Shown piece by piece: positions 12,866 through 64,000 of a stretch of 64,000 bases of DNA. The first letter of the stretch is position 1, and each line of letters opens with the position of its first letter. The position numbers and the translations under genes were made by a program. Source of the stretch: Lasiosphaeria ovina (Eukaryota > Ascomycota > Sordariomycetes > Sordariales > Lasiosphaeriaceae); the NCBI GenBank assembly GCA_033439765.1, contig JAULSN010000014.1, forward strand, positions 124,001 through 188,000, given 5' to 3'. Below the pieces are notes generated by a model, which saw only the letters and a list, made by a program, of their open reading frames with translations, did not search any database and was not told the DNA's origin.

Positions 12866-14573
12866 ATGGCCTCATATACTAAAGATAATATAGTTAATGC
12901 TTATCTTGACGTCACTGACAATGGTATTTCCATTCGAAAATCTGCCCAGAAGCATAGTATTCCATACACAACGTTACACGATAGACTCAAGGGAGTCCCT
13001 ACAAAGAGCGAAGTCTACCACCCCTCCCGGCGGCTCACAGACGCTGGAGAAAAGCGTGTTGTTACTTGGATCATACGCCAAGAGAGCTTCGGCTATGCCC
13101 CGACCTATTCACAAGTCTGCAGCATTGTTAAAGAGCTGCTCAAAAAGAAGGGGGATAATGAGCCCCTAGGAAAACACTGGATTGAGGCCTTCAAAGCCCG
13201 GAACCCCGAGATAAAAGCAAAAGTGGGTAAAAGAATGGAAGCAGCCCGATTCAACGGCTTCACTCCCAAAGCCGTAAACTGGTATTTCGACATCAGGGAG
13301 AAAGAATACGACTGGATCAGGCCTGGGCTCACTTTCAATATCGATAAGGCTAGTATTATGGCGGGCTTTGGTAAGTAAACAATACTCATTATACTCTACT
13401 ATACTGATTGTATATAGGCCTTGACTCTTTAGTCCTGGGGAGCTCAGAGACTCGGAAAACCTACCTCAAAAGTGACCAGGGCCGTAGTTGGTCCACCATG
13501 ATCGAATGTATTAGTACCGACGGCAAAGTCCTTGATCCAGGTATTATTTTTAAAGGAAAAGATCTTCAGACGTAGTGGTTTGAAGACGAGATGAACAAAA
13601 TAGCTGAATGGAGCTTCGTTACTAGTGAAAAGGGCTGGACTAATAACAAACTAGCTATTAGTTAGCTCGAGGATATTTTTATTCCACAGACTGATCCATG
13701 GCTTTAGTACGATAGCGAAGCCCAGCTTATTATTCTTGATGGCCACGGCAGCCACATAACGGTAAGTTATGAAGTCTATGCCCTCTTTTACCTATATATC
13801 TTATATTATTACCCTAGGATGACTTCATGACCTATTGCTTCTTCCATAATATATATCTTTGCTTCCTACCGGCCCATACCTCTCACGGCTTACAGCCACT
13901 TAACAACGGAGTATTCAATACAGTCAAAGCCTACTACAGGCGCGAACTGGCCAAATTGGCTAGTCTAATCGACTCAGCACCAGTCGATAAGATCAACTTT
14001 ATACGATGTTATAAAGTAGCTCGGGAGCTAGGATTCACGGAAAGGAACATCAAATCAGGGTTCCGAACGACTGGGAATTGGCCAATTAGTAGGCAAAAGG
14101 CCCTGAGCCACCCAGAGATTCAACAAGACAGGAAAAAGACCCCTGAGCCCGTTGTACCCCCTAGAGTCCCGGAGACCCCGTCTACTAGTCGCCAGGTCAT
14201 GGATCTGGGCATAGGAACTAGTCCCTCGACAAGGATGAAGTTCAAGAAGGCTGCCCGGGCAGTTGAGAAGCTTCAGACCGAAGTCATCTTCCAGAAACAC
14301 CAGATTGAAGCCCTCGAGGCTGAATTGGAGCGACTGAAGCCCAAAAAACGTCGAAAAATCCCGAACCCGAATAAGCGGTTCATGACTTTGGCCACCATAC
14401 TACTAGGTGGTGAGGTTCCCGAAGAGCCTCAAGTTGAGGCTCAAGAAGAGCCTCAAGTTGATGAGACTGAAGATGAAGTTGAGGAAGATTCTGACGAAAA
14501 TGACGATGTTATGCCTGCAAGGCAAACCCGATCTGGCCGTGCAATCCGTGCGCCGGCACGATATATGGACTAA
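12866..14573 (+). pseudogene. Fot1/pogo DDE transposase, mutated, two introns
   Basis: Start chosen at ATG 12866 (MASYTKDNIVNAYL; good CATCATGGCC context). Introns at 13371-13417 and 13762-13817 (both GTAAGT...TAG) restore one frame of 534 codons, the usual family length. Domain order: psq-type HTH (residues 1-50), CENP-B-type HTH (about 60-130), DDE domain with NIDK (first Asp), LIILDGHGSH (second Asp) and SHGLQPLNNGVF (third position), then a C-terminal coiled coil (VEKLQTEVIFQKHQIEALEA) and acidic tail. Three in-frame TAG codons (13573, 13663, 13705) replace expected glutamines. The third catalytic Asp is Asn, and the Glu after the first Asp is Lys. All are C-to-T or G-to-A type changes, as RIP makes. 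Confidence 0.9.
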
Positions 14574-15679: not shown

Positions 15680-15687
15680 ATGTCTTC
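15680..15687 (+). other. 8-bp target-site duplication, left
   Basis: ATGTCTTC directly abuts the left terminal inverted repeat. The same 8 bp directly follow the right one at 17706-17713. Confidence 0.85.
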
Positions 15688-15925
15688 TTATCTCAGTAAA
15701 CTCAGACGTCTTTTTCCAGGCAGGGAGAGGGTAGGGGGGGGGGGGTGTCTTCGCCACCATTCCGGGCAGGTGTGAATTGAATGGCCCACTTCGTGGGCCG
15801 GATGGGCGGCTGGACAAAATCCCGCCCATTTTATATGTAAATTTGTCCCGCTAGCCCATTTGAGTATTTATCATCCCAGGACCCACATTTTTGCCCAGAA
15901 CGCCTGGAAAAGACGTCTGAGAGCT
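15688..15925 (+). repeat. Left fold-back terminus of the RecQ unit
   Basis: Outer arm CTCAGACGTCTTTTTCCAGG (from 15701) is complementary to the inner arm 15902-15921, which differs by one T. Between them lie a 12-G run near 15734 and a small hairpin, GGCCCAC-TTC-GTGGGCC, at about 15782-15798. Confidence 0.85.
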
Positions 15926-16309
15926 AAATTGGGTAGATCCAATATGAAGGTACGCGCCCCCATACAAATCGGGATTTTCCAGAAAATTGAACTGCGAATA
16001 GCCTCAACACCACAACAGTTGACATGAAACCAAAATATGTCTGAGGATGCTAGAGACCAGGAGAATTCTTTGCCGTTGTTTTGAATGTATTTGCAGTTGA
16101 AATGCGGATTTTGGTACGACTAGACCTTCAAAATTTATGAAGTTACGCTTTTCATCCGACTCGATAACCCCCATCCAAAAGAACAGCCAAAATAGTTATT
16201 GCAGTAAAAATTTAATGCCGAGGACCTTCTTCTTCCTGACAACCTCCGTGTGTAATTTTCAATCCTTCAATCAATCTGTTGCTCGTATGCCAGCCTCGAA
16301 CGCCTCAAA

Positions 16310-17403
16310 ATGGCCTCTCCTAGCGATATAGAGCACATCAAAGCGACGATTTGCACCATTACCGGCCACCAAAATACGCGCGCAGGTCAGATCAGGGCGG
16401 TCGCTCGATTAGTCTTCGAAAATGCAGACACGGTGCTCGTCGCGGCGACGGGGTACGGCAAAAGCGCTGTTTTGTACGCCTGCTCGGCGCTGATACATAA
16501 GATCACGGTACAAATCGTACCGTTGACGAAGCTGGGCGAGAACCAGTGTGAAGCTATCGCGAAAGACGTCGCGGGCGCAAGGCCTGTTTGGATCGATGCA
16601 GACACGCATCTCAAGGCGAGTGCTGAATGCCCTGTCGCTCTGCTCGTTACCCCTGACCCCTGAAATTGATCGGCAACTGACTTCCTTCGGTAATAATATA
16701 GAATCGAGCGATATGGAGCGAAGTACGCGAAGGAAAATACACGCACGTACTCTTGAGCCCAGAGCAGGCCGTCAGCGCCAAGTTTAAGGCTGTTTTAAGG
16801 GACCCGGGCTTCCATACACGAGTCGGTCTTTTCGCAATCGACGAGCTACACATTGTCGGCGAATGGAGAGAATTCCGGGAGGAATCCACATACCTATACT
16901 CTCTGAGAGCCCTGCTTCCTCGCGCCATTCCTTGGTTCGGTTGTACTGCAACGCTCGATGGGGACAATCAGGAATTTATCCTCAAGCACGCCGGCTTCGA
17001 TCGACAACGCCTCGAAATTATCAGGACCTCTATTGACAGGCCTGAAATATCGATCGTTGTACAGCCTCTCGTGAGAGGGTATATCAATGACTTCCGTCGA
17101 CTCAATTTCCTTCTGGAGGGAGCAACTACCGCCACAGTCCGGGAGATTCCAAAGACCATTGTTTATATTGATAGTAAGCCGAGGCTTTCGGAAGCTCGGT
17201 ATTCGTTATGCCGGTATGCACAGGAAGTCTATGGCTTTTCCAAGGAGTTCTCTCGAAAGGTTATCCAGCGTTATGACGCCGATGTTCGCGATGCCGATCA
17301 AAACCTCATTCGCGATGGACCGGCATTTCTGCGCCACGGCGGCGCAACCGGAGGAAGCTGCGGGACTTCGTCGCCGTCAGAGTCTGACATTTTCTATCGA
17401 TGA
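16310..17403 (+). CDS. RecQ-like superfamily 2 helicase, N-terminal half
   Basis: ATG at 16310 (CAAAATGGC context). Exon 1 is 16310-16615; the intron 16616-16701 has a GC donor (GCGAGT), an AACTGAC branch site and a TAG acceptor; exon 2 is 16702-17403. Splicing joins DADTHLK to NRAIWSEVREGKYTHVLLSP without a break, giving 335 residues. Helicase motifs: Q-like GHQNTRAGQIRAV, motif I AATGYGKS, motif Ia VPLTKLG, Ib LLSPEQA, motif II DELH, motif III GCTATLD. Reading stays like the fungal RecQ/TLH-type family through RRYDADV-like VIQRYDADVRDADQNLI, then leaves it. Motifs IV-VI (second RecA lobe) are missing. An ATPase lobe alone is unlikely to be a full helicase. It lies inside the TIR-bounded unit. 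Confidence 0.8.
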
Positions 17404-17539
17404 GATTAGTAGCAATCGAGAGCGCGCTTTCTAGCGATCAAAGTGGTGCATACGACGTATTTTTGCGCCCTGATTTGGTGGTGTAAGTGGCATGCGCGCA
17501 ATTGACTGATTTGGCCCGTAACTGCAAGAGGGAAAGATG

Positions 17540-17705
17540 CAGAATTGCTCTCAGACGTGTGTAGGCCCTGATCCCGGTGCGCGAATATAAAAGATCTAAT
17601 TGGTTGGAATTTATTTAAAAAGCGGGTCCATTGATCTATTCCTAATTGGTATGCCACCCCCCCCCCTCCTTCCTTGCCTACACACGTCTGAGTTTACTGA
17701 GATAA
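17540..17705 (-). repeat. Right fold-back terminus of the RecQ unit
   Basis: Outer arm (17676-17692) and inner arm (17550-17566) are perfect 17-bp inverted copies. The outermost 22 bp (17684-17705) are the perfect reverse complement of 15688-15709. A poly-C run near 17657-17666 mirrors the G run of the left end. Confidence 0.85.
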
Positions 17706-17713
17706 ATGTCTTC
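17706..17713 (+). other. 8-bp target-site duplication, right
   Basis: ATGTCTTC, the same as 15680-15687. Confidence 0.85.
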
Positions 17714-18896: not shown

Positions 18897-19430
18897 CTAG
18901 TAAACAAAGTCGGGGTCATCGTCGTAGTCCCCCTCTCCCTCGCCACTTTCCTTGCGAGGAAAAGGGTCTTCTTCATCCTGTGCATCCTGTTCATCCTGTT
19001 CATCCTGTTCATCTCGCTCTTCTAGGCTCGGCCCGGCCACTTCGAACTGTGAATAGTAACGCCGCGCTTCCCGGCGAATCGTGCCGCCCCGGGGTGTTGT
19101 CTTCGTCTCCGGCGCCGGCGGCTCAGGTGGGATGGCTTCATTTCCGAAAGGACCCTGATTGACAGGGCGACCTTTCGGGGATCGCTTTGTCGGGCTTTTC
19201 GATGCGTAGATGGTTGTTTTCCGCATCCTAGAAGCAAATTAGCTAGGAAAAACAAGGCAACAAGATTCCTGACAACCTACTCGATGCTTCTTGAGATGCC
19301 AGGTGCGGTCGCAGTCAAGTAGGTCAACCAAAACACCGTCTTCGTGATCGTCATTGTATCTTTCGAGCATCACATGCGCGCAGGGCATGCCGCACTGGCT
19401 ACTGAATCGTTCAGTGCAGGGAGGAAGAGG
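18897..19430 (-). pseudogene. Mutator-like transposase C-terminus with SWIM zinc finger
   Basis: The reverse strand encodes CTERFSSQCGMPCAHVMLER, a SWIM-type finger (C-x-F ... G-x-P-C-x-H) as found after the DDE domain in fungal Mutator-like transposases. It goes on with DLLDCDRTWHLKKH, then an intron of about 53 bp (donor GTAGGT near 19275-19280, acceptor TAG near 19228), and a second exon (YASKSPTKRSPKGRPVNQG ... acidic EQDEQDEQD tail) ending at 18897. The exon phases are off by one base as I read them, so a small lesion or a shifted splice site is likely. Upstream of the finger the reading runs straight into minisatellite sequence; the catalytic domain is gone. Confidence 0.7.
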
Positions 19431-19439
19431 CCACGTCCA

Positions 19440-19860
19440 GATCCCCGCGACGGAAAACCCCCTGATGGACACAATCGACAGCTGATCTATTCCGACTTTG
19501 CTCTGGATGGTGTTGCTGTCCCAAACCTTCTTGTAGACGGAAAACCCCCTGATGGACACAATCGACGCCGGTTGGGAGACCTATCTCGACCTCTCCTCGA
19601 ACTCATCGCCAAAGACGGTTCACTGTGTTCCACGTCCAGATCCCGCACGCTGTCACAGCTGATCTATTCCGACTTTGCTCTGGATGGTGTTGCTGTCCCA
19701 AACCTTCTTGTAGACGATGCGAGCCAGAGGCCATGGACACAATCGACGGAAACCCCCAGAGGAGCTACCCCCCAACGAGCCCAATCGACCCGGCCATCCC
19801 CAGAGGAGCTACCCCCCAACGCGACGCCACGCCCGACTCGCGCCGTACGTTGGAGAGCTT
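19440..19860 (+). repeat. Mixed minisatellites (families M1 and M2)
   Basis: Family M1 has the core GGAAAACCCCCTGATGGACA linked to GGGAGACCTATCTCGACC and CACTGTGTTCCACGTCCAG blocks. Family M2 has the core CCAGAGGAGCTACCCCCCAA with CGACCCGGCCATC. Both appear here, along with a duplicated GATCTATTCCGACTTTGCTC block (19484 and 19660). Confidence 0.8.
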
Positions 19861-20050
19861 GTTGGATGGAAACCAGACGGGACAGCCGTGAAAACCTTTC
19901 TCTGAGGGCCGTGAAGGGAGTGTCGTGTTCCAAGTTCTTGCCAAAGTGCGCCGAACAGAGCGCTCGCTCGCACAAATGCTTGATAAATAATATGCATCAC
20001 GATGATTGCGGTGTTGAGAAAGGTAGGTGTTGGTCGCGTTGAGCAGCCTC

Positions 20051-20252
20051 GCCGTCAACATGAGGTAGGGATTCTGCAGGAACGTCTTGCCCGGGTCCTT
20101 TCGAGGGCTGGGGGGTAGCTCCTCTGGGGATGGCCCGGTCGATTGGGCTCGCCGTCAACATGAGGTAGGGATTCTGCAGGAACGTCTTGCCCGGTTCCTT
20201 TCGAGGGCTGGGGGGTAGCTCCTCTGGGGATGGCCCGGTCGATTGGGCTCGC
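20051..20252 (-). repeat. ~102-bp tandem duplication containing M2 core
   Basis: Two copies of a block that starts GCCGTCAACATGAGGTAGGG and ends in the reverse complement of the M2 core. Flanking reverse-strand readings (NPYLMLTARLLNATNTYLSQ) look like the edge of an unknown gene fragment; a diverged second copy of that edge lies at 20260-20310. Confidence 0.75.
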
Positions 20253-20942
20253 ACAAATGCTTGCTCAATAATAGGCATCAAAAAGACTGCGGTGTTGAGA
20301 AAGGTAGGTTGACAGCTTGATGATGTGCTCTTCAAGGGTTATATGGCCGAGGAAAGGCATGCAAAGGCCTGCAAAGGCCACCTGGCCATTGAAGAACTTA
20401 AACACCAAGTACACGCAAAAATGCCCGCATATGGAAGCGTAAATAGTGGCATTTTGACTTTACCGGGCTTCCTTAGTGCCCGGTATGCTTCCTTGGTGCC
20501 GGCTAGGTTTTACCGTACAAAAAGCGGTCCCTGCGACGAAAAGTTAAGTGGGTGCGTGCCGGTATGCTTCCTTGGTGCCGGCTAGGTTTTACCGCGGTCC
20601 CTGCGACGAAAAATTAAGTGGGTGCGTGCATCAAAGCTCAATTTGAATACGCGAAGTGCTCCTGCCTAATGTTCTATTTAGTCAGCTCGTGGTAGCTACG
20701 ATACAGAGGGCTGACTAGGAGCCATCTGCAGTGAGGAAACTCTGAGTTCGGGAAAGAATGGAATAGCTGATATCCGTCCGTGATAGCAGCTTCCTGTTAG
20801 CCTGGAATGGAAGATTACCCAAATTCGGAAAGCGCAACTCGAAGTCGGGAAAGAGCAAACCCCCGCGGCCAGAACCCAACCTCTTTTCCCACCCTTCCAT
20901 CTTGGGCAGCAGCAGAAACAACAGAACCAGAACCAGAACCAC
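20253..20942. other. No recognised gene; ~80-bp tandem duplication
   Basis: A block with GTATGCTTCCTTGGTGCCGG ... AAGTGGGTGCGTGC occurs twice at about 20480-20632. No gene recognised. Confidence 0.55.
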
Positions 20943-62974: not shown

Positions 62975-63360
62975 AGCCTTGGTGACGATTCTATAAAGAA
63001 GCTCCTTTATATAAAGAATTGGGCTGGAAATGCAGGAGCTTTAGTAAGGCTGCTGAAAATGGCAGTTTTCGCCATGCCCTCAAAACACAAGGCATTACGA
63101 TTATCAGTGACGATCACGTCGGGGAGGCGGCATCCTTCAGCAGTACTGTACGCAAGGAGATGAAGATGCTCATCAAAGAGCCAGCTTTTGGTGTATTTGA
63201 GCCTTTCAAGGGCCAGTCTACAGTGCCTACTACTATTGCACAAGTCTGTGATACTGCATGGCTCGAAAACACACTCAAACAAGCCTGGCCAACGCTCAAA
63301 AAAGAAGCCCCGAATATGGTCACCTTTTTATCACAGGTCCTACAGAATCAGGTATATTTC
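62975..63360 (+). pseudogene. Unrecognised coding fragment
   Basis: A forward frame (from 63019) reads RHALKTQGITIISDDHVGEA, KEMKMLIKEPAFGVFEPFKG and TLKQAWPTLKKEAPNMVTFL, SQVLQNQ, then a GTATAT donor-like site at about 63350. The ending (W-x-x-L-K-K-x-A-P-N-x-x-x-F-L) resembles poorly known large fungal proteins that are often multi-copy. Family not assigned. Confidence 0.35.
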
Positions 63361-63450: not shown

Positions 63451-64000
63451 TACTAATAATGAGGCAGCCCATAACCCACAAAGACAATCTGGCCCTAACG
63501 AGCTTCCCGGGCGCCTGTGATCTCGTACATCACATCGTTAATGCGTTTTTTCTACTCGTTTTCTTCCATTTTGGCGGCGTAGGAAGGCTTCCGGTAGGGC
63601 GATTAGAAAAGGTTTGTTATACAAAGAAAAAATTACATGCCGAGGATGCCCTGCGCGAGGGCATTCTATATGCAAATTTGCAGATTTTTCGGCTCTGTTG
63701 TGATAGCATAGTTGGGATGAAGCTTACAGCAAAAAGACAGAGACGTATGGTTGTTTTTCCGTTTAACATTACGAATAACACTTCTACTTCCTTTAACGAT
63801 ATAAAAATCATACCAAAAGACTCGCGCGCGTCTCAGTGTCCTCAGATATATATTTTTATATTTTGAAGATATGTTGTTGTTGTACAGTTGCAGGATAACA
63901 TTCTGTCATTTTTTCTATTTGTATGGGGCGCAGAGACCTATGCCCCCCCCGAGCAACAGTTTGCTCTCAGACCTCTTTTTCAGGCCTTCTGTACAATATG
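63451..64000. other. No recognised gene
   Basis: A forward frame to 63866 contains LREGILYANLQIFRLCCDSI and may continue the fragment at 63.0 kb; the rest is AT-rich. The window ends without a clear feature. Confidence 0.35.

Follow-up and report, generated by a model that had tools for sequence, protein, structure and literature searches.

Inverted-repeat elements of Lasiosphaeria ovina that pair a RecQ-type helicase gene with a probable DUF6589 transposase

Kolobok elements have TTAA as their target site, we know of no hAT or P element that carries a helicase, and the original account of AcademH, a lineage of the Academ superfamily, is said to be that of Kojima in 2020. AcademH elements are transposons of fungi and animals that are bounded by terminal inverted repeats (TIRs) and encode both a transposase and a helicase, as outlined in the parts of PMC10045372 and PMC10799480 that concern them; the first of these, a citing paper, gives their target site duplications (TSDs) as 9 or 10 bp. 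KolobokH, a fungal Kolobok lineage, has a RecQ helicase downstream of the transposase domain, according to the relevant part of PMC9587614. Here we compare with these systems a 2,018-bp unit that holds a RecQ-like helicase gene in a 64,000-nucleotide stretch of Lasiosphaeria ovina (the window; C6:124001-188000 of a 51.7-Mb, 32-contig assembly, contigs being numbered with a C throughout). The unit is very probably a non-autonomous copy, shortened by internal deletion, from a family of cut-and-paste DNA transposons that carry two convergent genes, one for a RecQ-type SF2 helicase and one for a probable DDE transposase of the Pfam family DUF6589.

The perfect 22-bp TIRs and the 8-bp duplication outside them lie exactly where the initial annotation of this DNA had placed them, as follows.

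15680-15687, no strand: left TSD (ATGTCTTC), an exact 8/8 match to 17706-17713
15688-15709, plus strand: 5' TIR of 22 bp, TTATCTCAGTAAACTCAGACGT, beginning TTATCTCAG, from repeat and genome searches
17684-17705, minus strand: 3' TIR of 22 bp, the exact reverse complement of 15688-15709
17706-17713, no strand: right TSD (ATGTCTTC), an exact 8/8 match to the left copy

A looser inverted repeat reaches 52 nt at 77% complementarity (15688-15739 with 17654-17705). The search for further 22-bp ends that the initial annotation had proposed does find other copies in the assembly: with up to three mismatches, the TIR 22-mer gives 10 matches per strand (20 in all, the window's two included), and the reversed control gives none. 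The unit as a whole has at least 60 matching pieces in the genome, counting self-matches and distant helicase matches. Its longest match to another copy has 83% identity (on C32), and the next two have 78% (on C12 and C23). The smallest copy, with one degraded end, is about 0.35 kb long (C32:161052-161404); others measure 0.92 kb (C27), 2.0 kb (the window copy), 2.9 kb (C32:131618-134477), about 5.1 kb (C23) and 8.2 kb (C12), the last with a retrotransposon-like gag open reading frame (ORF) inside it; full-length relatives measure 5.1-6.2 kb. A second family has ends close to TTATCTCAGCAAGCTCAGACC.

Target duplications accompany these copies at sites of differing sequence. Among the nine two-ended copies, to which the count is confined, seven have an exact 8-bp TSD, one matches at 7/8 bases and one has no TSD, and none of the nine has a 9- or 10-bp match. 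In the first family the duplications are ATGTCTTC (window), TTCGAAAT (C32), CTCTCAAG (C27), GTTTGAGC (C12) and AGGGCATC (C23); in the second they are exact on C28 (GCCCCCCA) and C32 (GAAAACCC), match at 7/8 bases on C29 and are absent at C6:302850-309053. The small copy at C32:161052-161404 (L019) falls outside the count, its left end being degraded, although a 7-bp overlap, CCAAATC, is visible there. The second-family copy at C6:302850-309053 has both ends and full-length size and is possibly a recombinant of two copies. Both flanks of the unit were also searched in the genome for a paralogous empty site, and none was found; the flanks are single-copy save for one 68-bp match.

The ends share a further feature. 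At 21 of 23 ends the inner TIR motif recurs in inverted orientation, over 10-22 nt, about 120-230 bp inside, and the other two have no such copy; for 20 ends none of 200 shuffles reached the observed motif length, and for one end two of 200 did. These subterminal motifs may be transposase sites. The window copy has two of them.

15908-15921, minus strand: inverted subterminal repeat of the inner TIR motif (CTCAGACGTCTTTT), where the transposase may bind
17550-17566, plus strand: second inverted subterminal repeat of that motif, exact over 17 nt, from the repeat search

The full-length relatives hold two convergent genes, one for a RecQ-type helicase and one for a DUF6589 protein. A transposase gene with the same ends was among the things that the initial annotation had thought worth looking for, and tblastn places both the helicase and the DUF6589 gene inside the TIR-bounded C12 and C23 copies, each of which has its TSD. 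Genome-wide, the matches merge into 22 helicase loci. A DUF6589-gene match lies within 7 kb in convergent orientation at 10 of them and on the same strand at one (C6:191478), and the remaining 11 have none; when all 22 loci were placed at random, convergent pairs averaged 0.23 and never exceeded three (2000 trials). Lists of 44 DUF6589 and 36 helicase homologues have seven contig sizes in common, where equal size is taken to mean the same contig, an assumption that carries little weight for long contigs: Achaetomium macrosporum (14,770), Annulohypoxylon truncatum (7,473), Diatrype stigma (406,399), L. ovina itself (645,570 and 549,880) and two further contig sets (6,123 and 4,000). Of the 44 DUF6589 homologues, the remaining 36 have no counterpart of equal contig size among the listed helicases; proteins of Chaetomium globosum and Xylaria intraflava are among these 36.

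The helicase of the longer copies has Helicase_C and DEAD domains in Pfam. P0051, a full-length helicase relative, finds WRN as its best match among solved structures (E 5.9e-19), followed by RecQ, BLM and RECQ5; the placing of the DEAD/Helicase_C core closest to RecQ thus comes from the structure match for P0051 only and a Pfam domain scan of six relatives. RecQ_Zn_bind appears below the cut-off in two of those six (E 0.0043 and 0.11), with a visible Cys pattern. The longer versions encode this helicase together with what seems to be their own transposase; the helicase therefore appears to belong to the element itself rather than to ride in it as a passenger.

A 667-aa ORF from the C5 relative matches Pfam DUF6589 (E 4.1e-63), a family described as being of 'unknown function' in the Pfam copy searched; the first fragment of the second gene gave no Pfam match above the cut-off. 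A model of the DUF6589 protein has the strand order of RNase H, conserved D, D and E residues and a helical insertion, and when compared with solved structures it is most similar to the hAT (Hermes) and P-element transposases, at 8-13% identity in the alignments. No Academ entry is among these matches, which carries no weight because the comparison covered solved structures. Conservation was read from a structure alignment of 34 of the 44 homologues, in which other acidic residues are as conserved as the D, D and E. On this modeled fold, the protein is a probable DDE transposase with a helical insertion. No hAT dimerisation, BED or P-element Pfam domain was found at E up to 0.1, the C5 ORF giving DUF6589 alone and the N-terminal part being scanned in the relatives' fragments. 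The literature searched yielded no mention of DUF6589 and no link between it and Academ. We note that the window holds a fragment of a second DUF6589 gene (63016-63351, plus strand; 46% identical to transposase P0007 over residues 12-122), and that a helicase match about 4 kb beyond it (C6:191478-192293) is on the same strand, not convergent.

Among described groups AcademH is the closest, and we consider it likely that these elements belong in or beside it. The C12 and C23 copies resemble AcademH in combining transposase and helicase within one TIR element, a comparison made with published descriptions (PMC10045372 and PMC10799480, in the parts devoted to the lineage). The element plan is AcademH-like with TSDs of 8 bp, not 9-10 bp. 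A true AcademH element with a shortened TSD is likewise the probable identity, a finer placing of the transposon-family reading with which its odds overlap; in its favour is the existence of a described helicase-encoding TIR lineage in fungi and animals, and against it stands the reported 9 or 10 bp, set beside exactly 8 in seven of nine copies here. The portions of PMC12210899, PMC8290104 and PMC9970103 that deal with Academ contain no sequence criterion for membership. Much less probable, though a real option, is that the elements form a superfamily separate from both Academ and Kolobok: a strict 8-bp target stagger and a hAT/P-like fold would mark its DUF6589 transposase, which would have been paired independently with a RecQ helicase and would need it to transpose or copy.

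The initial annotation had offered two explanations for the helicase, as cargo moved by a DNA transposon or as part of an element that uses it. The second is supported by the 10 of 22 tail-to-tail pairs and the seven equal-size contigs, and the cargo explanation is not needed. Its specific form, in which a hAT-type transposon captured a host RecQ-like helicase as a passenger, is largely refuted and very unlikely: the 8-bp TSD, common to hAT and the present elements, and the hAT/P-like fold of the transposase are in keeping with it, but the recurrent pairing, the presence of both homologues on equal-size contigs in Achaetomium, Annulohypoxylon, Diatrype and two further contig sets, and the absence of any hAT domain from the Pfam scans all speak against capture. 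Of the earlier statement that an 8-bp duplication marks a cut-and-paste element such as hAT, the duplication stands, and membership in hAT, as judged by Pfam domains, does not. Identity with KolobokH, which is likewise a group of fungal DNA transposons with a RecQ helicase (PMC9587614, in the section on it), was rejected as highly improbable, since the duplications here (ATGTCTTC and TTCGAAAT to GAAAACCC) are 8 bp, differ between copies and are not TTAA, the helicase gene runs convergently on the other strand instead of lying downstream of the transposase domain, and the C5 transposase ORF gives DUF6589 alone in Pfam. That the repeats arose by chance or as a recombination artefact around an ordinary gene is refuted, and nothing was found in its favour: the ends give 20 matches against none for the reversed control, and the TSDs differ in sequence from site to site.

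Compared with the longer members of this transposon family, the window copy is internally deleted and non-autonomous, having lost helicase motifs V-VI and the transposase. Its interior is laid out as follows.

16310-16615, plus strand: helicase exon 1 (motif I, GYGKS), from Pfam DEAD (E 2.8e-05) and tblastn to P0051 (68%)
16616-16701, plus strand: putative intron, the match to P0051 breaking near residue 102/103, as it also does in C12 and C23
16702-17308, plus strand: helicase exon 2, truncated, motifs II-IV kept and V-VI lost, from tblastn and comparison with longer copies
17308-17310, no strand: internal deletion junction with a shared ATT, from alignment to longer copies
17311-17683, minus strand: 3' remnant, without detected transposase coding; longer relatives have it upstream of their transposase gene

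The DEAD match of exon 1 scores 24.3 bits, below the curated cut-off of 26, and exon 2 alone has no Pfam match at E up to 0.001. GYGKS, DELH and TAT motifs are present across the two exons. At the junction (~17308-17310), before motifs V-VI, the reading frame departs from the helicase family, so the earlier description of a spliced RecQ-like helicase holds for the family and for the two exons with their putative intron, but not for an intact gene. About 0.8 kb is missing relative to the C32 copy and about 3.2 kb relative to the C23 copy, and neither transposase P0007 nor P0011 has a tblastn match within 15688-17705 at E up to 1e-4. With no transposase match and a helicase that ends before motifs V-VI, the window copy would be mobile only through a full-length relative, or was deleted after landing. 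Ratios of nonsynonymous to synonymous change (dN/dS) for the helicase are 0.09-0.18 over about 300 codons in six pairs among the window, C32, C12 and C23 copies (codons with stops were skipped, and the four pairs that involve C5 give no ratio because of saturation at synonymous sites), from which we infer that the gene was held under purifying selection while the family spread.

These features suggest a plausible course of movement. The transposase would recognise the TIRs and the subterminal motifs, excise the element and join it to target bonds staggered by 8 bp, with gap repair at the staggered target producing the TSD; this step is supported by the ends, the TSDs and the fold. For the helicase, a role in transposition is conjecture: it may open the duplex at the element's ends or at the donor site, or aid copying or repair, and so raise copy number. 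The window copy itself could have been moved by enzymes supplied in trans from a full-length relative, or could have lost its interior after landing.

Most pieces are decayed, judging by in-frame stops in 20 of 27 helicase matches and in 28 of the 47 to the transposase. Dinucleotide skew like that of repeat-induced point mutation is evident in the first 3.0 kb of the C12 copy (TpA/ApT 1.35) and not in the window copy (0.68). The matching pieces are crowded on two contigs, with 20 of 60 on C6 (0.55 Mb) and 19 of 60 on C32 (2.5 Mb), and are rare on the 9.2-Mb C1, which has one of 60, as if C6 and C32 were repeat-rich or accessory chromosomes. Multi-copy RecQ-like genes occur likewise in another ascomycete, Mycosphaerella graminicola, an example of the telomere-linked RecQ helicases that are subtelomeric genes in fungi (PMC4522978, in the part on these genes); by location they contrast with the present helicase, which lies in dispersed TIR elements. 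A route for the spread of telomere-linked helicases had also been suggested for this locus, and nothing here supports it: of the 22 helicase loci, two come within 50 kb of where a contig ends (those on C7, at 39 kb, and C8, at 26 kb), with 1.7 expected from even placement on their own contigs, a weak test because contig ends need not be chromosome ends. Spread from telomeres was dropped as an explanation.

Elsewhere in the window, a piece of a pogo/Fot1-like DDE_1 transposase (13818-14573, plus strand) lies 1.1 kb upstream of the element, and direct repeats (31-100 nt) cluster with near-exact inverted repeats (43 nt, 98%) just downstream (19430-20310). A sequence at 63828-63849 (minus strand; ATATCTGAGGACACTGAGACGCGCG) is six mismatches from the TIR and has a close variant inside a second-family copy (L028:2989); it looks like part of the second family, not a true end.

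DUF6589, a family of unknown function in the Pfam copy searched, gains from these elements a concrete and testable role as a DDE transposase. To the question of why certain cut-and-paste transposons encode a helicase they contribute a further example, one with clear ends and TSDs and with non-autonomous derivatives. They also suggest that, among the RecQ-like helicase genes annotated in multiple copies in Sordariomycetes, some belong to transposons and not to the repair machinery of the host.
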